Positions 2,247 to 23,098 of a stretch of 24,315 nucleotides of DNA are shown here, one piece after another (positions within the stretch are counted from its first letter, which is position 1; every line of letters begins with the position of its first letter). The DNA is taken from assembly GCA_000787465.1 (NCBI GenBank), contig JSYX01000511.1, positions 1 through 24,315 on the forward strand, read 5' to 3'. Made by a program: the position numbers and the translations under genes. The notes beneath the pieces are model-generated. The model ran no database searches and had not been told where the DNA came from. It worked only from the letters and a program-made list of their open reading frames with translations. The stretch is from Thermomucor indicae-seudaticae. Its lineage: Eukaryota > Mucoromycota > Mucoromycetes > Mucorales > Lichtheimiaceae.

Positions 2247-5200
2247 ATGTCAGATGCCGAGAATAAACCGAAAAAGCCGGACATAGACCAGTTGGAAACA
2301 GCAGCCCATGCTTCTTCGCCTCCAGTGCCGCAGATAACCTTAACCGAAGCTGTTGATAGTCCTTCAGACGAACTCGACATCAACAACCAACAACAAGCAT
2401 CGCGATTAACCCCTTCACCTAATTCCCTGTCCCAAACGCTCGGTCGAACTGCAGCATCACCCAATAACTCATCTATTCCTTTACCGCTTACCCGAGATCT
2501 TTTGCAAAGAAAAAACAAGTTGGACAAGCTTCTGCATAACAATAATAATAATAATAATAATAATAATGGTCGTAAAAGATCCCAGCAACAACAGCAAAAA
2601 GCTCTCCCGATCATGACTTTCTCTAGTAGTGACAGTAATATTGCTGTGGACGAAAGAGTTACTGCTGGACTTGGTATATCGACACCAACATCCAGGAGGA
2701 GGACATCGATACAAAATCTGAGGAACCGCCGCTCTTCGACTTCAGCCAACATAACAGACGAAAATCCTCTTCAGTCACCAACGAGTATCGAGCATCCTGC
2801 GTGGAATTACTACTGCTACATGGATCAAAAATCCATATCCAATTCGACGTCAATCATGGAACATATGATAATCCACCCTGCTACTACTATTACAGCGGCT
2901 TCGCATAGCGCATCGTCATCCATATACAGCATTATCAGCAACAAAAAAAAAATGTATCACCGTGAAAAGCAACCTCATCAACAACATATGCATGCACAGC
3001 AATATACCCAACCACATTACCCAGAGTCTTTTTATCGGTCGCCTTTCGTCTACCACCATCAACAAGAAAATAGAGCGCTTCAATTTCTATTCAGTGCTGC
3101 TTCTCGAGTCATCAATTTACGCGGTCTGGAACGGCGGAACAGTCTGAATATCGCCAAGTCAGACTCTCTTCTCCAACGCTCGCCTAGCATAGTTGATAAC
3201 AAGTCGCCCAGGTACTCGGATCCTATCGATACCGAGGATTGGTGCTATTATGCCGCGAATCGGTACCCTACCCAGCATTCTGACTTGTCCAAACTATCGG
3301 AAAAACGGTCCATCCGGAGCCACGCTAGCTCACCCATTTTTCACGTTTTCTCGAGGACAAGCTATTCCGATTTGCCGCCAGCTCCTGAGCACGAGTCCCG
3401 AAGCAGCACGATACCGGAAAAACAGCAATCGGATCCTACTAATTTTGCGGAAGAGGAAGCACTTCAGTTTCACCCACCCAATCCGCTCCATGGTAAAACT
3501 TTGGGTCTATTTTCTCCAGAGAACCCGGTTCGTTTGACTTTATGGAAAAACGTCATCGGCTCCAGGTGAGAGTTCCACGCCGTGAACGAAAACAACCAGG
3601 CCAAGCAAGTATGATAGCTCATACTGCTACGTATCTAGATACGTCGAGCTCTTTTTGTTATTCGTCTTGTGCTTGCATTATTTCTTGCTGGTGTGCGTTC
3701 CCATTTACGAGAACAAGGAAAAGACAGTGTTTGGTGGTCAATGGACTCATTATGTGATACTGGTAATACAGATAATATACAGGTGAGTGGGTCAGCTGTA
3801 TGAGTTAGTGGACGGGGAGAGCCGTTGACTTTGCAAACTCACGAGTTAGTGCATCATCATAGCCTGGAAGCACTCTGTAAAATAGTAGTATACGGATTGT
3901 GGATTCCGCCATACAGAAGTGGTGGTCACCAAGATGGCTCAATCAGAGGTTACATGGCTCAGCTCTTGCGTACGGACAAGTTTATATCTGCACCTATTGT
4001 CCATGAGGTAGAGGAGGAGGAACAAGCAAATCAACTTAAAAAGGACCATCCGGCATTTTACCACAAAGCGTATATAAGCGGTGTGGCGAACGTGCTTGAT
4101 CTTGTTTCTATTGTTTCTTACTGGATCGACTTTGGCTTAATGCTCCATGAGTACCCTTATTGTTCCCTATTCAAGGCTATGGGTGCTTTACGGCCTTTGC
4201 GGCTGTTATCGATACTACAAGGTACAGCGGTAAGTTTCTGTGGATACATATATGACTCGCGTAGATGTCTGACAAGTGCCATGTGCCAGACCATCATGAG
4301 GTCACTCGAAGTTAGCTGGGGCATGCTCAAGGACGTCATTGGCTTCATATTCTTCTTTCTTTTGCTATTTGCACTCATTGGACTGACGTCTTTCAAGGGT
4401 GTCTTTTCAAGGCGGTGCTATGTTATGGAACCGGATGGTCAACGTAAGCCTGTTATCGTATGTTAAATCGTATCATGAAGATCTTACTGACATTTGGTAC
4501 TGTGAAGCAAGCCTTGTGGATCCGCCTCTGTACTGCTCCGGCTACTATAATGGCACTCAGGTCACTGGCGCGTATAATCCCTCAACGAACACGTACAGCA
4601 ACCCAGGGTACAAAGGGTACCTTTGCGAAAGCGGGCAAGTATGCTTGGAAATTACCGAGAACAACCCTGATTATGGCTTTGTCAATTATGATACAATCTA
4701 TTATGCGTTCCTGAGCGTTTATACCACCGTGTCATTGGAGCTTTGGACCGAACTGATGTACAACAATATGGATGGAGACTCTGCTGTAGTAGCATTGTAC
4801 TATTGTTTAAGCGTTTACGTTATCAGCTTTATTATGTTATTTCTGATCTTTGGTAAGCTAATGAACGGTTTCTTTATTCAGAGAAGGAAGGGACATGAGG
4901 GCTGACTTGTCTGTGATAATTAGCTGTCATAACATCTGGATTTTCTCGCGTACGAGCTGAAAGTAAAGTGAGTGCGTTTACGGGCAAAAAGAAGAAACAT
5001 CGTATGCTACGGCCGGCGCATATGACAGATGATCAGGAGGAGCTCGTGTGGAGATATGAGGATCCCGAGCATGATCCGCGCCACTTGACGACAAGGCTCA
5101 GGTTTAAGCGACTGCTCACACGGTTCGCGAAGAGCACTGCGTTCTTTTATCTGGGAGGATTATTGGTATTGCTGGACATAGCATTCATGTGCTTGCGATC

Positions 5201-8200
5201 AGCTCATGCAAGTGACGATACACTTGAAATGATTGGTAAGTATTTTATAGTTAGTGGCTTCCGAGTGCTACGAATATCAACTCTCAAACTTCCTTCCAAA
5301 GACAATGCTGAAACTGCTTTCACGTTTTTGTTCGCGTTGGAGATCCTGATACGAATGTTGGGAGCCGTAAACTGGATGAAATTCTGGATGTCGACTAGGA
5401 ACAAGTTTGATCTTTTCCTGGTCATTGTCACTTGCATTATTCAGCTGCCCATGATTCAAGATTCAGCAGCGTACAAGTATCTGACCATATTCCAATGTTT
5501 ACGGATTTATCGGCTATTTATTTGTATTCCTCGTGTGCGCAGACTAGTGGTATTTATCGTGGCATTGAACTTGATGGAGCTTGTGCACCGCTAAGACACG
5601 TTTGCCCTATTAGGCCGCTGCGCTGGGTAACGGTGAAAGCGTTATCAATGTCGTCATATTTTTGCTCTTGGCCACCGCCCTTTGCGTTCCTATTTTCATG
5701 CAGCTCTTTGGAGGGGATTTCGGGTTTATCGGTCGTGACGAAACAGAACTACGGTGCGACACCTTTTGGGAATCTTTTCTTACGCTGACAATGGTAAAGC
5801 AAGCGCATTCCTTACTTGATACATGGGATTTTGCTCGACTTACATGTACGTTTTCTGAACAGATTTACACGAGTGAAACATGGACAGTAAGTCCAGTCTC
5901 TCTTCGAAAGCAAGGAACTATTTAATATTGAATGGTTGTATAGGAATTCTTGTACAATGCAATGGCTAGTCAACCGAACTTTTCAGCAGTTTATGCAGCA
6001 ATTTTTACTTGCGGCTACTTGGCGTTTGCTAGATGTAAGTAGACGAGTTTTTTGTAGGCCCTTAGGCAGCGGACTGACAAGCATACTAGATATTATGTCT
6101 GGGCTGTACATTGCTGTCATTTTAGAGAATTTCGAACTTGAAGACGAGGAAATCAAACGGTATCAAATAAGACAATTTATACAAAGAAAGGCACTAAAAA
6201 GCAAGAACAAGGTACAGAGCTTCCTCGACAGGTAAGTAAAACTAAATATGCAATAAGTCATCAAAAGTATTAAAGAGTTTGCAGGATACTTGGACCTCTT
6301 TATATCAAGTCAGACCGTAAACAAGTGCATCTATCACATTTACCCTCTGCATTGACGGCTGCAATGAACAAGAATGCACTTACCGATATGCTATCTAGCC
6401 ACCAAGATGGGACGCCAAGTTCTTCGGACGGCTGTGCTTTAACAGAAGAACCAAAGGCCTCCAAGTTGATGCATATCTTAGCGCCATGGTCTAGAGACCG
6501 GAAAACGAACAATAAGAGGTACAGTACATTAAGAAATTCACGAGAACTCGCTTGCTAAACGATATCCAACATCAATAGCAACAGTCGCGAGGCCGAGCTG
6601 TCCATAGAAGAAAACAATGAGGATTACGAACTGATCGTGGAAGAAGAAAACAGAAGAGCGTACATGAACGAGATGCCAGAGCTTAAGTCTTTGTTTCTAT
6701 TCTCGTCTCAGAACAGGTTCCGCCGATGGTGCAAAGTCCTAGCTGGCTCCAGTGCCGATGGCCGGACAGAGCGTCGCAATCTCTTTAACTGGTTCATTAC
6801 CGCCTGCGTGGTTGCAAGCACCCTTATCGTGATTCTCGACGAGCCATCAACACGCGTGATCCGGATGCATACGCTCCGACAAACCGCGACACGGACGGTG
6901 GATATGGTGTTGAGCACTATATTTGTCGTCGAGATTTTTATACGCGTTGTTGCGGATGGCCTAATCCTTCCGCCAAACGCTTACCTCCGAAACTCTTGGA
7001 ACCGACTGGATTTTACAGTGGTAGTTTTGAACTTTGTAGTGCATTTTGCAAGCGACGGCAGCGATTTGTCGAGAGCTGTGGGCACGGTACGCAGCCTCCG
7101 TATACTGCGCTTGATCCGGTATTTTAGCGGGATGCGGGACGTTTTCGTGGACTTGTTTTATGCTTTCCCTTTGATGCTGGATGCGCTTTTGCTGGTTTTC
7201 CTGGTCATGATATTCTTTTCGATCTATGGCGTCAACATGCTGGGCGGTCGTATGATAACGTGTAACGATGATTCCGTTTCGGGTCGTAATGAATGCGTAG
7301 GCGAGTTTCAGAACGATGTAGGCGACGCGCGTGAAATCAATATTCTTCAGCCACGAGTGTGGGCACTTCCCGACGAGGGGTTATACAGCTTTGACGATTT
7401 TCCGGCCGCGTTGGCTCAGCTGTTCAGCTTATCTTCAACAGAAGGATGGGTAAGGAAGGGCTTGAGTGGCGGGAAAAGAGGACATGATTTTTAATGTGAT
7501 GTCGTTCTTGCCTTAGATTGACTCTCTGTTTCTTGCCATGAGCGCTCCTAGCGAGCCTGACGTACAACCAGAATTTAGTTGGGACTCACCGGCTGTCTAT
7601 CATTCCATCTTTTACGTCATTTTCATGATAGTTTCGCATGGAACACTTCAACTGTTTGTTGGCGTATGTTTGATGATCAGAGTTGATATGTACCGATTAC
7701 ATATAGACTAACATGTACCTTTGGCAGGTTATTATCGAGAAATTTAAGCAAAGAGCAGGTATAACGACGATGACCACGACGCAGCGTCAGTATGCCGATC
7801 TACGACGCCAACTGGCAGAAATCAAGCCAACGCCAAAGGTTTACAGACCAAATACCAGGATCCGCAGGTGGTGTTATGATCTTGTGGCAAACAAACGAGG
7901 AGCATTCACCAAGGTTATGATGGGCATAATCATTCTCAATATATGTAATTATGTGCTGGATATGGTAAAAAAGACGAGGGATTAACTGGATTTTGTAATA
8001 GGCGTGATCGCAACCGAGTACCAGAATTCACCTGGATGGCTAGTGCGGCTACAAGGTCTGTTTTTGGAACTTTAACATCCCGCAGTGTTTCGATCCTAGA
8101 TAACTTATCGATCTATTCTCTGCAGATGCCGCATATCTTACATTCATAATCGTCTTTATTTTGGAGTCGATCATCAAGTATCTCGGTCTGGGTTGGAGAA

Positions 8201-10516
8201 AGGTAGCTTCTTGATATGCAAGCGCGTAGAAATCACGATAGAATTAACATGTTCTTCTTTTCCACAGTGGAGCAAAAGCAAATGGAATTGGTTCAATGCA
8301 TTCATTGCAATTAGTGCTTTCGTCCTGATGATGATACGATTCTGGTCTTTAAACGTACGTAGTGCATAAGCGCGAGCTTTCGATGATTTTGCGCCAGCTA
8401 ACCATTATGTGTTGTATTAACCATAGCTTTGGGTGCCACGGATCGAGCGTTATTGTCTTGTAATTGCAGCTTTTCGCCTTGGTGAGGGCATCGATGCTCT
8501 TCAAACTTTGTATCATACTGTTCGGTAAGGTTTAAATTTCGCTATTCACGCTTGTCATGGAAATGGAAGTTTTAATCTTTCCATAGGATATCACTGCCAA
8601 ATATTGTACATGTAACGGCTGTATTTCTACTCGTTATGTGTATTTTTGCGATGATCTTCATGGAGCTCTTTGGCCTTACGAAGTACGGCTCTGAGACAGG
8701 GAACCATAGCAATTTTCGGGATTACGGCAATGCCTTGCTGTTATTGATCCGAATTACCACTGGAGAAGCCTGGGTAGGTGCAGAGAGAGTATTTGTACGG
8801 GAAGATATTGCTAACTTTACTTTTTCAAAAAAAGAATGTGATAATGATGGACTATACAGTGCAGCCACCGAGCTGCGTTTACTCTGACAACTACCTGTAC
8901 ACTGACTGTGGATCGCCTGGCTGGGCATACTTTCTCTTTAACTTTTTCTACCTCATTTGTACGCACATTTTTCTAAACCTGTTTACTGCGGTAAGTAAAC
9001 TAGAACGTTTTATAGGCGTGAACTTGTTCATGACACTGTCATACTAGACCGTCATCAGTAATTTTGAATATACATACGAGACACGGTCAAGATTTACTCG
9101 ATTGAGAAAGGAAGATCTCCGCAAGTACGTAGTGCTGCTTTGTCTATGCATTTCCGGTACATTGGACTAAAATTATGCCTCCTCCTTTTAGTTTCAAGTT
9201 TGCTTGGTCAGAGGTCGATCCAAACGGGACAGGCTATATGCAGAAGGAAGACGTAGCGAAATTTCTGCACGTAAGTGGGTTTCCCTTAGCGCTAGTTATA
9301 GTCGTAGGCAAGCTAATCATCCGGCGACAGCTTCTAGATGGACGCTTTCGGATACGCATATATGATGATATGCACAGTATCAAGGCTCTTCAGAGAATAG
9401 CAAAAAAAGGGATTATGTCTCCTCAATTGGGGAATGAAAAGCCGGTTGACAATTCGGTATCCCCACAACTGCATCAATACAATATTGCCGAGCTCAATCA
9501 GTGTCTATCTCGCATCAACCCTGAAGAGCTACAAAAGCGTCGCAAAGAGTATAACCTGTACTATCTGGTAAATGACCATTGTGCAATACTAGTGTTCTGC
9601 AGCTTTCATATTCAAAGCTATGGGTATCACTAGGAAATCATCAGTGCAGCGACTTCGAAAGGCATATCGTTTGATGATGTACGAACGATCCTGTCTTATC
9701 GATTCCTTAACATCGAAGACGCGCTGACGTAAGTCATCAACCAACAACAACAGTCAGGGTGAAAGGGAGTTTCCTAACAAACATACTGATTTCAGTATTG
9801 ATCCTCTCATTGAGCGCCTTGAAAAACTGGATCAACTCAATAAGGCATACGCAGCCGAAAAAGCGCGAGGCGTCTTTCTTACTATGGCTCAGAGGAAGCG
9901 TTACTTGCATCAGCTTTGGCAGAAAAGAAACGAGGACGAATTACGCAAACTAAGTGTACCGAACAAGACAGGGCTGCACTTGGATACGTCTGCTGCAGGT
10001 TTGATCCCAAGGAGTCCGACTGACAGATCGCAGAAAAGTTCACCAGGTACATACTACCAAATCTATAACTTGTGTTCTTTTTCTGCATACAACCTCCTAA
10101 AGACATTTTGGTTAGTGCCTACTATTGTGATTGAAGATGCACCACCGTCTCCTGGTATTCTGTCCGATTACGTTCCGTCTCCTGCCTCGCTCACAGTACC
10201 TGTTTCACCCATGTCAAATTATTCGCTCGACACAATGTACGGCTCACCGATTAGACCCGCTGGGGGGGACTCACTTAGCGTCACGTTTGGAACCAACAAC
10301 AGTCTTCAAAATTCTCCCTGTCCGACGAGCGTAGTAGAACTGGATGATAATGCTTCTGTATTCAACAACAGCAACAATGTGCTGTCGCCTCATAGCCCAA
10401 CGGTTTTGCGTCAGAATTGGCAACTTGTAGTAGATGGCAACTCTACTAATATAACTCCAGAACTTGCTGCCTCAATAATGGAGTCTCTAGAAAAGAATTT
10501 TTGGTCAGGTGGGTAA
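2247..10516 (+). CDS. CCH1: Cch1-like voltage-gated calcium channel alpha subunit
   Basis: Pore-forming subunit of the fungal plasma-membrane high-affinity calcium channel, which in yeasts works with Mid1. My model has 27 exons: 2247-3565, 3639-3782, 3863-4229, 4290-4443, 4481-4852, 4924-5235, 5302-5549, 5614-5793, 5863-5886, 5944-6034, 6090-6231, 6285-6518, 6579-7449, 7517-7663, 7728-7944, 8002-8055, 8126-8202, 8268-8354, 8427-8524, 8587-8773, 8835-8990, 9048-9124, 9192-9270, 9331-9567, 9634-9728, 9796-10046, 10116-10516. They total 6621 nt (2206 residues plus stop), a usual size for Cch1. Residues 1-430 are low-complexity with a run of 10 Asn and a run of 5 Gln. Four six-helix domains follow, about 440-790, 860-1085, 1260-1605 and 1660-1835. 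S4-like arginine-rich helices are clear in domains I-III (e.g. RSLRILRLIRYF). Pore motifs are SLELWTELM, YTSETWTEF, SSTEGWIDS and TTGEAWNVI, giving Glu 748/1037/1484/1773. A degenerate EF-hand-like segment (EVDPNGTGYMQKED) follows domain IV. The acceptor of intron 1 is ambiguous (3599, 3617 or 3638 are all in phase), and intron 10047-10115 is optional. ATG 2247 is the first ATG in this frame. Confidence 0.93.
2541..2567 (+). repeat. (AAT)9 microsatellite encoding poly-Asn
   Basis: Nine consecutive AAT codons preceded by one AAC give ten asparagines in the N-terminal cytoplasmic region of the Cch1-like channel. A CAG/CAA-coded glutamine run follows about 20 bases later. The uniform AAT codons suggest slippage, so the tract length is probably polymorphic. 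Confidence 0.9.
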
Positions 10517-11368: not shown

Positions 11369-11534
11369 ATACTTACCTGAGCCGTGCGTCTGGTGATCAA
11401 GAAGGCTGGGCGTACAGGACGGATGGCTACCATTGCACTACCGGCGGCCAACTGTCCTGCGAACACCCTTCGGGGTGTCTCGAGGCTACAATTTTTGTTT
11501 GGGGGAGCTGGTTGGTTCGCTGACTAGCTCCCCG
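11369..11534 (+). ncRNA. U1: U1 spliceosomal small nuclear RNA
   Basis: The RNA recognises 5' splice sites of major-class introns. The 5' end ATACTTACCTG (11369-11379) is the invariant U1 sequence complementary to CAG/GTAAGTAT. Stem-loop I has arms 11386-11393 and 11406-11413, pairing fully with wobbles, around the loop TGATCAAGAAGG, close to the U1-70K-binding loop. Stem-loop II carries CCATTGCACT (11430-11439), the U1A-type loop. Stem-loop III is a perfect 6-bp stem with a TTCG loop (11463-11478). The Sm site AATTTTTG (11490-11497) is followed by a terminal stem GGGGAGCT/AGCTCCCC (11502-11509 with 11526-11533). Total length, about 165 nt, matches U1 in other eukaryotes. The 3' end is placed just after the terminal stem and is approximate. 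Many donors in this window are GTAAGT or close variants, which this 5' end would pair with. Confidence 0.95.
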
Positions 11535-14573: not shown

Positions 14574-17500
14574 ATGAAGGAAGCTCACTCTATGCGTCAG
14601 GCATACTCTTCATCAAGGCAAGCCGATGACTACCGTTCTTTCCTTGTGTTCATAGGGATCGCCTTGCTCATCATCGTCATCATCCGATTCTTTACAGGGA
14701 CCTTGGCGTACTGCTTGAAGAAAACGAGAATAACGTGCCCATGTCGCAATCGAGCATGAGCTATCTTGATCAGGTTCTGGACCCAGCGCTGCCTAACTCC
14801 CTCAGTTTTCTGCGAGGCTTGCACACCAAAGCAGGAACTGCATCTATCGCTGCCTACCACCGTGCAGATATTCCTACAACGTCTTCGATGGAGAGTGCTC
14901 ACACACCTTTACCTATGCGCCGTGCTCGTGCTGGCACTATGCCTTCACTTGGTTATATCCCTGACGAGCGATCCCACCGATCCCCGTTAATGCGACCTAC
15001 AGTGACGTCGTCGACTGTTACTAGCGTCGCAGCCGTTGATACGCGACATAGGTCTGGTTCTCTCAATCTGCCTATCGCACCTCCGATGCATCATCTATCT
15101 TTCGACAATCCAATGTTTGGTTCTTCTTCCGCTTCTTCTTCTTGGTCAACAATCGAAAGGGACAATAGCATGATACAGCAGCAGCAAGTGCATTCCTCTC
15201 TCCCATCACCTTCTACTGAACAACTTTTACGGGGAGATAGCGATAATAGCATTGCACGGACACTGCGATTAATGGGCCTAGAAGACGACCGAGCAACGCC
15301 CATGGGGGATATGGTTAATATGCATACTACAGCGACTAGCAATGGAATGTTTCATCATATTCAGCAGCAAGCACAACAACATCACCTTCATCAGCAACAA
15401 GAACAACAACAGCATATAACGCCAACAGCAGCCGAACTTCACCATATACCCGCCGGTCGGTCCTTATTGTCCGCAAATAGAAACCGTTCATATTCTGTGA
15501 ATGCCGCTGCAAGATACCAGGATCCTACACCTTCAGCTTCTATTCATGTTTCTAGATCACGCGCAAGCTCTGTGTCCCGCTCATATGCCAATCCACTTGA
15601 TAATCTAAACGTGCATCGAAACAGACCGAGAGCAGCCAGCATGGGACGCATGGATTATGGACGCTCCGTAAATCCTCCGATATCTTCATCCTTGTGGAAA
15701 TTGCAGCGTGTGCCACTGGAGACATTGGCGGATGACGAAAGCGATTATCAGTCACAAGGATACGCGGAAAGCTTGAAATCGAATCATCAGGCCGAGACAG
15801 TAGCGACCAAACTCCCACTGTCACTCGGCGACTCTGAGTTGCTGGCGAATATGCTACAAAAACAAGTTTATGCAGTCCCTAGGACTGTTGCAGACGAACA
15901 ACAAGAAGCCCTGAACGGTTACAGAAATGGGAACGGACAAGCTGCTGCAGAAGTAGGGAGAGATTCTTTTTTTTTCTTACTGCTCACATCCCGACTAAAC
16001 TTTGTATGTTCCAGCCGTACTTGCATTTCAGTCAGTCTACGCCGACTTTCCGCAGCCCTCAGGCACAGTTGACTCCTTCCGCTAGCTCACCGACACAGGC
16101 AGCTACCCGTTCGCTGTGGATAGGCAATATTGATGCAACTGTCAGCGTAGAAAATCTGACGCAAATGTTCATTTCGTTCGGGCCTATCGAAAGCGTTCGG
16201 TTACTTCTAGAAAAGGAATGCGCCTTTGTGAATTTCTTTCACGTGGAAGATGCAGTGCGGGCCAAGGAGGAAGTTCTGGGACGTCTTGGTGGTCGCATCG
16301 GCAACTGCATAGTACGTATCGGTTTCGGTAGAGCTGATGCTGTGGTGCCAGATACGACAGCTCTTCAACCGACACGAGCGCTCTGTATGTGTCCATTGAA
16401 TTAAGCGAGGGAAGGGACTTTGAATTAATTTTCCCTTTTACTAGGGCTCGGTAATATCCCGCCTGGCACAGCACCTTCGACTTTACAGCATATGTTTGCA
16501 TCCTTCGGACCAATCGAATCAGTACGGGTTCTCTCACATAAGAATTGCGGATTTGTCAATTTTGAACAAGTCGAAAGTGCGGCAAAGGCACGAGAGGCAC
16601 TGTTACAGAATGAAATTGGTGCTCAGGGGTTCGCTGGTGTCCGAGTGGGCTTTGCAAAAGTACCGCCTGTAAAGTCAACCAACCCTGACAATGCTACAAC
16701 AAGCAACCATGGAAGTAAATCATCATCGTCATACGATGGCAACGAGCGTACAGCCTCTGCAGACAACGAGACGTGGCTATCCGACCTTTGGTCCATTATG
16801 CTGGAATTTGGTGCTGATGAACAAGCATCAAGTCTGGTTAAAGGTGGGCATATTGATGTTTAAGGTCTATTTTTAGCTATCTTACACTCGTGTGTACATA
16901 GCATTAGAGACCTCATCAAGTTATTTTGAATCCATTCCACCTGTTCCAGAGTTTGGCGTTAATCGCAAATTTGACGCTAACCGATTGCGTGAAATTCGGA
17001 AAAAGCTGGATGCCGCTGATCGCGCTACAAAAGAAGTGGAAAACATTGCTTATGATTGCATGGATGAAATCGCAGAACTAAGCAGCGGCAAGTATTTATC
17101 GTCAGGGGGCCAGGAAGGGAATACAAGAGACTGACGGTGATTCAAAAAAGATTATATTGGCAACACAGTTGTGCAACGTCTTTTCGAGAAATGCACGGAG
17201 GACACCAAAACGGCGATGCTGGAACGCATTGCTCCTCATTTAGCAGCCATCAGCATTCATAAGAATGGTACTTGGGCGGCCCAGAAAATCATTGACACGA
17301 TCAAGACACCTGCTCAAGTAAGGGGAATTGAAGTGCTAGCAAAATTGGACCCATAGCTGACTCCTTATAGATCCATCTCGTTTGTACTCATCTTAAACCA
17401 TACGTCCCACCGCTCCTTCTTGACCAATTTGGCAACTATGCTGTGCAATGCTGCCTGCGACTGGGAGAAGTGCATAATCAATTCATATTCGATGCAATGG

Positions 17501-18812: not shown

Positions 18813-19805
18813 TCAAACTTTGTCTGCAACTGCTTCCTCCGGCGTCGGCGACTCTAAGCGTGGACTGCCATTCTGTTGCTGGTGCTGCTGCTGCTCATCA
18901 TCCTCATTTGGCCGCTTTTCTTCTTCCTGGCGCTTAAGGGCTTCATCTATCACCGCTTTGTGTTTGGATTCTTCTTCTTCTGCCTCCTTTTTGCGTGCAT
19001 CTCTGCGCTCTTCGTAGGCTTTGCGTTCCTGTTTTGCAAGCTCTTTCTGTTCCTCAATCTGTTTCTCCATTTCCTCCGTGAGCTTCTTTGGCCGATAGTA
19101 TAATACCGGTTCAGTTTTGGTCTTTATGTAGTTTGCAACGTATTCCTTTTGTTGGACACATGTGGAATCCTATAGCAAAAGTATTTAGCGATGAAAGGTC
19201 AGAACCAACATGCTGCATATGGATCCACGTACTATCTTCTCTTCCAAAATTCTCTTCTCTCTCTGCCTGAGTAACGCTATCTCCCGTTCTCGCCGCTCTC
19301 TTTCTTCAGCGACCTTCTCAGCTATTTCTCTCTTTTCGTTCTCAAGCTTTTCCTGAAGTTTGCTGTCGATCTCTCGCCTTTTCTTTTCCTGTATTCATTC
19401 AGACACGTTAAAAACATGCTTACGACAAACTATAAAGACAAGTTTTATCTACTTACCGCTTCGCTCTTGCTCATGCTTTCGTCTTTGAATTTGTTGAGAG
19501 TGCCAAGCAAGACATTAAACATTCGTTGTCCTCGTTGTTTGTTGTCAGCATTCAAGTCAAGTCGAGGCCTTTTCACCTAAACTCAAGTGTCAGAATATAC
19601 ACCAGATTCCGTAGCTTTTCTTTTTTTCACCAAGTTGTGTTACACGTACTTCGGCCGGTCCTTCAGATGCTTCAGAAACGCGACTCGATTGGGTATGATC
19701 ATTATTACCATTGTTGCTGGACCCTGACTCGTCCTGATCTATCGGCCTTTTCCTGAGCGACGATCCTTCCGAATGCGATGGAACTACGATGCTTGATTTG
19801 ATCAT
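18813..19805 (-). CDS. Pinin/SDK/MemA domain protein
   Basis: Likely nuclear, splicing- or exon-junction-associated protein of the pinin family. Four exons on the minus strand: 19805-19650, 19576-19457, 19388-19233, 19169-18813; every intron is phase 0 (73, 68 and 63 nt) and the total is 789 nt, 262 residues. Residues 1-52 are Ser/Asn-rich. The pinin/SDK/MemA core runs from about 53 to 180: RPRLDLNADNKQRGQRMF, then LLGTLNKFKDE, a long charged coiled-coil helix (REIDSKLQEKLENEKREI), and the signature IKTKTEPVLYYRPKKLTEE, which matches the conserved TKTEP..F/Y..P block of pinins. The tail is Glu/Lys-rich, then Gln-rich. It is far shorter than animal pinin and lacks an RS-rich tail. It is divergently arranged with the LRR gene, the start codons being only about 137 bases apart. 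Confidence 0.88.
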
Positions 19806-19942: not shown

Positions 19943-20911
19943 ATGCTCATGGATTTCCAAAAGAAACGAGCAGTGATATGGCATTTGCAGACCTGTGTGG
20001 TGACATTTTACCCTGTCAATGAAAACGATAAGCGGCAAGATCGCAAGCAACCCATTGCCACGGAGAGTCTTCTTCCCGACAACAGTTTGGCTTACAGACA
20101 GATTCAAGAGTTGGTAGGCATAATAGTAGGAAAAAAAAGAACACTATCCATGAAGACACTGAGCCGTGCTACTCTTCAGTTCTCACAGTGTGCAATATTT
20201 TAGAATATCTCGAAGCCTTCTCTCCCGCATTTGAAGCACCTCACTAGACTAATAATCAACGGCAATTATCTTTCGAATTTGCCTTCTGAGCTATGGCGAC
20301 TTCCAAATCTCCGTGAACTCAATGTCGCAAGGAATCGCATAAAACGTTTGCCGCCGGATATCGCGCGGCTGGAACATCTCGAGGAGTTTTATATTCACGA
20401 TAATACGTTAGAGGAAATACCTGTGCAAGTCGGTCGGCTTTCGCGTTTACGAGTTCTGGATGCCACGGGGAACAATTTGCGATGTCTGCCAGCGCAGATA
20501 CTGAACCTACGGTTAACGAATTTGTGGGTCGAGCGAAACTGCTTTTACACCTCCTCTGCACCCGAAGAGAAGATCGTTAGCAATGCAGAGGAAAACCAAG
20601 ATTGTGTTATACTGCCGCTACGATCTGTTTGCCTGCAAGCTGTGGGATCAGCGATATTGTCTCACCCATTACTTGAAGATTCACTGAAAAACTCAGTGCT
20701 AGCAGAAAGCGTTGTAGATCAGCTATTATCGATCAAGGATGATCCAGTCATTGCACCTCTTTGTTTCCAATGCTCAGCAATTATGTTTCACAACGGCCTT
20801 TCAATAGTTCGCTATGTAGACGGGATTGGCATGGGAAGAGTACCCTTCCTCTATAAGGTTTGCAGCCAATCTTGTCTGAATAATCTTGTAAAATCTGATA
20901 CTGCATTTTGA
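19943..20911 (+). CDS. Leucine-rich-repeat protein with C-terminal Cys pairs
   Basis: Probable protein-interaction protein of unknown partner. Exons 19943-20113 and 20204-20911, joined in phase 0 through a 90-nt intron (GTAGGC...TTTTAG); 292 residues from ATG 19943. At about 65-165 lie four to five LRRs of the typical short class, e.g. LTRLIINGNYLSNLPSELW, LRELNVARNRIKRLPPDI and LRVLDATGNNLRCLPAQI. The C-terminal 130 residues contain LCFQC and, about 36 residues later, VCSQSC, a spacing that suggests zinc binding and occurs in a family of fungal LRR proteins. The frame is open upstream to about 19844 without an ATG, so the true N-terminus may use a further exon. A donor at 20126 would add four residues. 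Confidence 0.75.
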
Positions 20912-21036: not shown

Positions 21037-23098
21037 TTATGATGGTCTTTGACGACAATACACAACGACATCTCCCCTTCGGCGCCAGTCATCGTGGAAG
21101 TGGCTATTGAAGAATCGTTCACATTCTTGATATCCGGCACTGTCTATAACATGTCCAACGGTCGTGGTATTTCCGGTTGCCGTACTGCCTTTCATCGCTG
21201 CTAGACTGTCAAATAGTACCAGATACTCGGGCCATGGCTTCACTGTACCCATATTCCGGGTCAAAAACAACACGGGATCGTTATAGAACAAGTCAGCTTC
21301 ATCCATATATTCCTGTTCATGGCCTGTAAGAGGTGGTTCACAGGTGAGAAACCACATGGACGCGTCTTGTCGGTGAACCAGCGATTGCCAAGGCGTCGAA
21401 TGACAAGGCATTAGTATACCGACGGACAGGCTACCAGTTTCCTGGCGACTTCTTATCCAGTGCATGACGTCCACTACTCCTCTCTGGTGCCAGAGTGACA
21501 GGTACAATGCCATCGGAATTTGAGTCAATATCAAAGCGACAAGTGTCTTCTTTCGCCAAGCAGAAGGCAGTTCCGTTAGACCGGCGGATGCAAATACGCA
21601 GAAAATAGGCATTAGAGGAAATAAGAACCGGAACTCCTTATGCGACAGTAGGCTGTACACAAAGACAACCCAAACGATGAGACTCTTCAGGATTTGCTTT
21701 TGCGTGCGCGCAGCAGTTGTGTTGTTTTTGGAGAATAGGCCGAGCAATACCAGCGGGAGCATGGTTGTCATAATAGCAGGTATTCCTTGTGAGATATACC
21801 AATGCCAAGAATGCACGCCGTAAACAAGCGACACAGCATCCAGAACATTGACCTTGAAAAAATTCAAAGGCGTAAGCACCGGTTCAAGAAGGAGCTGTCG
21901 CAATGTTCCCGTATACAGGTATGTATCGATGGCGACATTTAGAGCCAGGATGGAAGAGCTAAAATCTGATGAGAATTTTGCAGCAGGTATACGTTCTCTT
22001 ATCCCGCAGCTTACAATATAGCCGCCGCATTCAATGCAATGGGTATCCTGTAACCTGGACTGGATACCAATAAGCGAATTCCCAAATAAACCCATAATAA
22101 TGCATTCGTTGGCCGCATAATGCAAGCAATAGAAGCCCAGACAAGAGATTTACGGAAACGTCTGCAAAAAAGGCGTCGTTCAGTATGCTCCTTGCGGGAG
22201 CGAGCTGCCTTCCCCAACGTGTCCATAAATTACATACTGGAAACTGTGTTTACTGGGACGAAATTGTCCACCATCTGAAAATGGCCAGTAATTTAAAGCG
22301 ACGGTAGTAAGAACAGTCTCCATCGTATTTGAAAGTGTGCGGCCCGCCATGAAGAAGTTATACCACGACAGCAGGGTTATTGATAGCTGAGGCAGCAAAC
22401 TTTTCTTGTCAGTAACGTTTTGTGTTGGCGAAGAAGATCGATACTTGCAACATAGGGTGCAACTGAATTTCCAATGACTCGTTTCCCGAGCGTATATGTC
22501 GCATAGTCATTTATAGCAGCAAGACAAGCTTGAGCATACTTTGGTGCCAGAAACTTTTTATATCATCTAGGGCAGGGGTTATCGACCGGGTGAACGTAAT
22601 ATCAAAAGCCCTTACCAATATTTGGCCATTACTATCTAGACCTAGCCACGCGACAGTTTCATAAATCAGCGCAAAGAATGCCGGATGCAAAAAACTGCGT
22701 ATCCTGGCCTTCCATTCCCAAGTAACATAACCGTATGTATAGCACGCTGGTTAAGGAAGGGGGGAAATAATATAAGCGATCATCATGCGAAAGCGTGAAA
22801 AAAAAGGATATCCAAAAACCATGTAATGAGCGATTTCTTGGGCTTGCCAGTACTCGTCGGGATTGTCATAGGTACGTGTCATGTAAGCGTTCATCAATCG
22901 AAAAGAGAGGCAGAGGGCAAAGACAAAGGAGCGTGATCCAACCGTAGATCGTTGTTCACCAATGCCGTGCACTGCATTCTTGTGACCAAGCGAAGGTTCT
23001 TTGAGCGTCTCATTACCAGCCGGTAAATTATCATCACTCGACGTCGTTTTCCCTCTGATATCTGTGCGGTGCCGGAGCTGCTGCGAATCGATTGTCAT
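21037..23098 (-). CDS. GPI10: GPI mannosyltransferase III (Gpi10/PIG-B)
   Basis: ER multispanning GT22-family enzyme that adds the third, alpha-1,2-linked mannose to the GPI-anchor precursor, using dolichol-phosphate mannose. Exons on the minus strand: 23098-22812, 22736-22616, 22553-22452, 22386-22238, 22161-22015, 21958-21037; 1728 nt, 575 residues. Family signatures in order: FRLMNAYMTRTYDNPDEYWQ (first luminal loop with the acidic catalytic-site residues), VFGYGYVTWEWKARIRS, then GRTLSNTMETVLTTVALNYW, CIMRPTNALLWVYLGIR, LTPLNFFKVN, the hallmark SHKEFRFLFPLMPI, and a C-terminal domain with CEPPL and DEADLFYNDPVLF. Many hydrophobic segments agree with a polytopic enzyme. The first intron (22737-22811) is AT-AC. 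The third intron (22387-22451) needs a weak GTTGCA donor; the others are ordinary. The gene converges on the LRR gene (125 bases between stops). Confidence 0.93.
22737..22811 (-). other. U12-type AT-AC intron in GPI10
   Basis: On the coding strand the exon ends GTTTTTGG. The intron then begins ATATCCTTTT, identical to the U12-type AT-AC 5' splice-site consensus. It contains TTCCTTAAC (22758-22750), identical to the U12 branch-site consensus, and ends GCTATAC, 14 nt after the branch A. Removing exactly these 75 bases joins phase 2 to phase 1 and restores HYMVFGYGYVTWEWK, a highly conserved part of the family. The nearest GT-AG alternative (GTTTTTGG to TTAACCAG) puts the next exon in the wrong frame. 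Confidence 0.93.

Follow-up and report, generated by a model that had tools for sequence, protein, structure and literature searches.

Minor (U12-type) introns have been described in a number of fungi, and the section of PMC2846911 on Rhizopus oryzae and Phycomyces blakesleeanus gives, for one of the two methods used, one AT-AC and two GT-AG U12-type introns in the former and nine AT-AC and eight GT-AG in the latter. Passages of PMC10639083 give counts of 205 minor introns for Rhizophagus irregularis and 249 for Basidiobolus meristosporus, and report for R. irregularis the full set of four minor snRNAs together with proteins of the minor spliceosome; a subset of its introns is reported at positions common to animals and plants, and no convincing minor introns are reported for Ascomycota and Basidiomycota. 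The initial annotation of the DNA studied here stated that U12 introns are reported in Mucoromycota, which is borne out by what these two papers say in the parts cited.

We analysed an AT-AC intron of the GPI10 gene in a stretch of DNA of 24,315 nt (the window, by which we mean this whole stretch). Since minor introns in Mucoromycota have been published, this intron belongs to a known kind; the U12 introns of R. oryzae and P. blakesleeanus have the same class and motifs and also include AT-AC members (PMC2846911, section on these fungi). In contrast, that section names no GPI10 intron for either fungus, PIGB/GPI10 is not among the genes that occur in the passages of PMC10639083, and the 205 and 249 introns given there for R. 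irregularis and Basidiobolus compare with two exact-motif introns seen in the present genome. In the literature search, PMC6929111 matched PIGB together with U12-type. No paper linking PIGB/GPI10 to minor introns was found, which says little, because gene lists lie in supplements beyond the search. What is added here is protein-sequence evidence that fishes and several early fungal lineages have this intron in common and that gene annotation suffers from it.

The GPI10 gene and its first intron

The six exons of the gene (Table 1) encode an intact product of 576 aa that aligns with its relatives over its length. This product belongs to the Alg9-like mannosyltransferase family (PF03901, E = 2.3e-98) and its matches include homologues named GPI mannosyltransferase 3; judged by these matches, the gene is that of GPI mannosyltransferase 3 (GPI10; PIG-B in animals). 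The top homologue, P0001, shows 97% identity over 55% of the query, and the best named one, from Zychaea mexicana, 55% identity over 99% of the query. The 19 best named homologues (P0002 to P0022 minus P0005 and P0010) come from genera that we take to belong to the order Mucorales, and the organism itself is probably a Mucorales fungus.

Intron 1, read on the minus strand from 22811 to 22737, is ATATCCTTTTTTTTCACG...CCCCCCTTCCTTAACCAGCGTGCTATAC. Its 5' splice site, ATATCCTTT, matches exactly the U12-type criterion RTATCCTT, and its branch site, TTCCTTAAC, matches exactly the criterion TTCCTTRAY; the second A of the branch-site AAC, at 22751, lies 14 nt ahead of the last base of the intron. Excision joins ..AHYMVFG to YGYVTWEWK.. 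in frame, in phase 2. When the intron is retained, the frame stops at residue 116, which is the TAA within the branch site. The initial annotation had described an exact U12-type 5' site, an exact branch site 14 nt from the end and a terminal AC, and all the letters are as described; its 75-nt AT-AC intron within a fungal GPI10 gene holds in class, gene and frame, as does its remark that the size resembles that of the U2-type introns of the gene (56-76 nt for the other GPI10 introns).

Introns 2 to 5, which were positioned by eye and by the reading frame, are of 62 nt (GT-AG), 62 nt (GC-AG), 76 nt (GT-AG) and 56 nt (GT-AG). Intron 3 (window 22387-22448, minus strand, phase 0) is apparently a GC-AG intron (GCAAGT..CTCAG), and with this intron cut in that way the protein is gapless when compared with its relatives.

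Table 1. Window coordinates of the GPI10 exons and of the elements of GPI10 intron 1
Feature	Position	Strand	Remarks
AT-AC U12-type intron (GPI10 intron 1)	22737..22811	minus	75 nt, phase 2
5' splice site ATATCCTTT	22803..22811	minus	complements both the 5' end of U11 and AAAGGA in U6atac
Branch site TTCCTTAAC	22750..22758	minus	likely branch adenosine 22751 or 22752; contains TAA
3' splice site AC	22737..22738	minus	terminal dinucleotide of intron 1
GPI10 exon 1	22812..23098	minus	first in-frame ATG at 23098
GPI10 exon 2	22616..22736	minus	starts YGYVTWEWK...
GPI10 exon 3	22449..22553	minus	
GPI10 exon 4	22238..22386	minus	
GPI10 exon 5	22015..22161	minus	
GPI10 exon 6	21037..21958	minus	includes the stop, ending at 21037

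Other features were observed on the same contig. A gene for spliceosomal U1 RNA (Rfam RF00003, 96.2 bits, cut-off 69.5) lies at window 11369-11533 on the plus strand, on the contig that also carries the minor intron. The exons of an ion-channel gene extend over window ~3804-9720 (plus strand), three pieces of which match Ion_trans (PF00520); our reading of this gene is a CCH1-like voltage-gated calcium channel. An RRM domain (15883-16401, plus), a pinin/SDK/memA region (18816-19169, minus) and leucine-rich repeats (20204-20908, plus) are also present.

Probable traces of the intron in proteins of other species

Mis-annotated proteins of other species were taken as witnesses, on the rationale that predictors unable to use AT-AC ends sometimes retain part of the intron as coding sequence. 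When a phase 2 intron is retained in this way, the first base of RTATCC completes the split codon and the rest gives Tyr-Pro; at the other end, AC and the first exon base together give Thr. The codon in a retained-intron protein does not distinguish A from G as the first intron base, and an AT start in the intron of other species was deduced from its AC end.

We compared at the splice point 165 distinct proteins among the matches listed. One homologue query was the R. clarus protein P0065 (best 53 of 65 candidates); since this protein itself retains the intron, counts among the 165 proteins are not frequencies. In this set, 106 proteins were contiguous, 19 failed in the upstream pattern only, 6 matched upstream only, 27 showed neither pattern and 7 had an insertion. 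The 19 upstream failures are read as contiguous and, together with the 106 and with P0084 (by eye), they bring the contiguous proteins to 126 of the 165 among the matches listed; contiguous homologues are thus most of the set and are silent on the presence of the intron.

The insertion lies exactly at the splice point in 7 of the 165 proteins among the matches listed, ending in Thr in all seven and starting with Tyr-Pro in six. Its carriers are Rhizophagus clarus (P0065), Boleophthalmus (P0122), a further protein (P0123), Mugilogobius (P0132), Periophthalmus (P0135), Seriola (P0144) and Symphorus (P0162), among which P0122, P0132, P0135, P0144 and P0162 are the five named fishes. In these fish PIGB proteins the codon of insertion is the same as in GPI10, as known from protein records, and the inserted residues fit RTATCC plus a terminal AC, except in Symphorus P0162, where the insertion is Val-Thr without Tyr-Pro and fits the terminal AC alone. 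The insertion of P0122 ends in FLNTDT, which fits a branch site TTC-CTT-AAC followed by the terminal AC, and those of P0123 and P0132 have CLN near the end, which fits TGC-CTT-AAC, so that CCTTAAC may be read in P0122 and P0132. A run-on with Tyr-Pro was observed in four of the six upstream-only proteins, namely those of Umbelopsis nana (P0023), U. vinacea (P0027), R. irregularis (P0036) and Entrophospora (P0126), and was absent from P0084 and P0092. A second R. irregularis record, P0048, is contiguous at the splice point. The annotated Fennellomyces protein P0009 starts ..AWFLDILFF, which resembles ITWFLDILFF of the window sequence in another frame, so that it too, like the four run-on proteins, extends into the 5' site of the intron.

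It had been proposed to compare the position with that in animals and plants. For fishes, proteins that retain pieces of the intron indicate a shared position; the named plant records (P0108, P0115, P0127, P0130 and P0133 among the matches listed) are contiguous at the splice point and uninformative. Loss of the block around the intron was rejected as a test of intron 1. Among the 120 homologues listed, the block at intron 1 is missing or broken in 28, and the blocks at introns 2, 3, 4 and 5 are lacking in 33, 9, 50 and 3, respectively; the loss is unspecific, being commoner at introns 2 and 4, and only retained letters are specific. A search of genome contigs for relatives gave 35 loci, and the best-scoring of them (L040, MNJR01000089.1, 4832-6764) is contiguous at this codon, with no intron there; in viral contigs no relative locus was found. 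L040 is filed under an Acidobacteria MAG, but its PIG-B-like coding sequence is interrupted by an intron, and for this reason it looks like fungal contamination.

Looking for the same codon, phase and class in animals gave a strong protein-level signature in fishes, from protein records. Because insertions at the same codon occur in fish and early fungal proteins, the GPI10/PIG-B intron probably predates the split between animals and fungi, an age that we infer from the protein records of other species. An alternative, which we consider unlikely, accepts a real minor intron in this gene but takes the fish and Glomeromycotina insertions for unrelated annotation artefacts, so that the intron would not be ancestral. 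The evidence consists of protein records, one query itself retains the intron, three of the fishes are gobies, which are related to one another so that the seven insertion proteins are not independent, and the 126 proteins contiguous at the site form most of the 165 among the matches listed. However, the insertions share a single codon as well as the Tyr-Pro start (6/7) and the Thr end (7/7), the FLN of P0122 and the CLN of P0123 and P0132 near the end fit YCCTTAAC, and P0023, P0027, P0036 and P0126 continue into Tyr-Pro from that codon.

Choice of splice sites and chance expectation

To compare the possible splice sites, we listed the GT-AG, GC-AG and AT-AC pairs separated by 40 nt or more. 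Donors were taken between 60 nt ahead of the intron start and 75 nt after it, and acceptors to a limit of 70 nt beyond the intron end. The frame was kept without a stop in 26 of the 97 donor/acceptor pairs. The AT-AC pair 22811..22737 obtained the top summed score against three homologues (839), and the runner-up (794) was also AT-AC; the best GC-AG pair scored 782 and leaves extra residues. No GT-AG pair was found among the best 8 of the 26 frame-keeping pairs, and among these 8 VFGYGYVTWEWK was uninterrupted under the proposed AT-AC pair alone. The claim that excision restores a conserved block in frame is therefore sustained, in phase 2 and with the best score of the pairs tested.

These results make it very improbable that the major spliceosome removes this stretch, whether at GT-AG or GC-AG sites close by or as an AT-AC intron of the U2 type. 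U2-type AT-AC introns exist, and the other GPI10 introns have a similar length (56-76 nt) and GT-AG or GC-AG ends; nevertheless, the best GC-AG pair scores below the AT-AC pair, GT-AG pairs are absent from the best 8 of 26, and both the 5' site and the branch site of intron 1 are the exact U12 consensus.

From base composition, the exact pair ATATCCTTT..TTCCTTAAC, with 31 spacings allowed, should occur 0.04 times in the 24.77-Mb genome, both strands counted. It was seen twice, in GPI10 intron 1 and at C381, among the five genome matches to the looser pattern TATCCTTN{20,50}TTCCTTRAY; the reversed pattern gave 0 matches and composition alone predicts ~2. A scan of 224 kb with one mismatch allowed (the first 10 kb of 19 of the 735 contigs, the window and L016) gave 19 matches, the GPI10 and C381 introns included, vs 12 in the reversed sequence.

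The second exact-motif AT-AC intron (G000:C381, minus strand of L016) is 78 nt long and its flanks are open in phase 0 (EPII/VAAASEN); both exact-motif introns found in the genome are AT-AC. The C-terminal pieces of the C381 gene resemble FANCE (2ilr_A) only weakly (E = 0.19), and no Pfam family was matched over its cut-off by the pieces of this gene; FANCE may serve as a lead to its identity. The remaining looser-pattern matches, C124, C268 and C374, were rejected: they end in TTCCTTGAT, and the opposite strand, judged by eye, reads as coding ATC-AAG-GAA. Window 9664-9720 (ATATCG..TTCCTTAAC..AC) was also rejected as an intron; it reads as coding GISFDDVRTILSYRFLNIEDALT, beside the calcium-channel-like exons.

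That the motifs of GPI10 intron 1 match by chance, or that the gene is damaged or misassembled there, is hardly credible, for although near-matches arise by chance, as in the coding sequence at 9664-9720, and the one-mismatch scan gave 12 matches in reversed sequence against 19, the genome-wide expectation of exact pairs is only 0.04, the rest of the gene is intact, with a frame aligning full length with its relatives, and the signature of the same intron appears in other species. The GPI10 AT-AC intron is, in sequence terms, real, and its dependence on U12 splicing is almost certain.

Minor-spliceosome genes in the same assembly

The assembly (24.77 Mb, 735 contigs) was searched for minor snRNAs. 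U6atac scored 48.2 bits against an Rfam cut-off of 33, with three more matches of 16.6-20 bits below the cut-off, and U11 scored 73.1 bits against 39. A U12 candidate fell below its cut-off (32.6 bits vs 53, E = 0.001) and has an intact branch-recognition segment, UUAAUGAGUAAGGA. The U4atac candidate (C618) was weak (25.2 bits vs 53, E = 0.3); a U4atac stem II plus Sm-site pattern had two matches, this candidate and C88, and the reversed control had 1. In 14 prokaryotic control genomes, matches appeared in 8 (U6atac), 3 (U12), 1 (U4atac) and 1 (U11), none of them over the cut-off. The initial annotation had called for this snRNA search and had named a genome without U12/U6atac genes as evidence against its reading. 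The outcome does not refute that reading: U11 and U6atac are over their cut-offs in this genome, the U12 gene is a candidate below its cut-off with the pairing segment intact, and U4atac is the weak part of the result.

The start of U11, AAAAAGGG, and a segment of U6atac, AAAGGAGAGA, are complementary to CCTTT of the 5' site, and GUAAGGA of the U12 candidate is complementary to TCCTTA(A)C of the branch site. RNA duplex energies for the GPI10 sites were uninformative, as 129, 53 and 107 of 500 shuffled strands were equally good.

Five minor-spliceosome protein families were also searched (SNRNP25, PDCD7, zf-U11-48K, CCDC84/CENATAC and SCNM1). An SNRNP25 homologue was found over the cut-off (E = 3.5e-19 vs the human 25K chain, 8r7n_B), and a PDCD7/U11-59K homologue exceeded the cut-off in two places (E = 2.7e-9 and 4.2e-9); we take SNRNP25 and PDCD7 to be proteins specific to the U11/U12 di-snRNP. 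For zf-U11-48K there was no match in the assembly, and for CCDC84/CENATAC there was none either, the controls being silent too; SCNM1 had a single match, below the cut-off. The protein search that had been suggested was thus positive for SNRNP25 and PDCD7, and gave nothing over the cut-off for the 48K finger, CENATAC and SCNM1. It is very probable that the minor spliceosome of this organism is functional.

Discussion

It is very likely that intron 1 of GPI10 is a functional AT-AC minor intron, recognised by U11, U6atac and U12, and probably an old one, and we infer that splicing at this intron takes place. The steps by which these RNAs pair with an intron are established for the minor spliceosome. 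In GPI10, U11 and then U6atac would pair with the 5' site ATATCCTTT, U12 would pair with TTCCTTAAC leaving the branch adenosine bulged, and the minor spliceosome would ligate ..VF(GG) to (A)YGYVTWEW... If the intron were retained, the TAA of the branch site would end translation at codon 116, so that the expression of GPI10 would depend on minor splicing. As regards its age, the same codon, phase 2 and the AT-AC ends would probably have been present already in the ancestor from which animals and fungi descend.

A broader reading, to which we give slightly less than even credence, combines an AT-AC intron ancestral to opisthokonts, with codon, phase and subtype kept from moulds to fishes, a compact 24.8-Mb genome that keeps a minor spliceosome for a small group of introns rich in AT-AC members, and N-termini mis-annotated in several fungi because of the intron.

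The approach offers a cheap way of detecting such introns without genomes or RNA, through mis-annotated proteins in which Tyr-Pro stands for RTATCC and Thr for the terminal AC. For the family, the GPI10 intron would be an AT-AC intron at a favourable position, with an age that can be followed through animals and fungi, and it bears on the persistence of AT-AC introns. For the organism, the result would add a Mucorales-like genome with minor-spliceosome genes to the known set.
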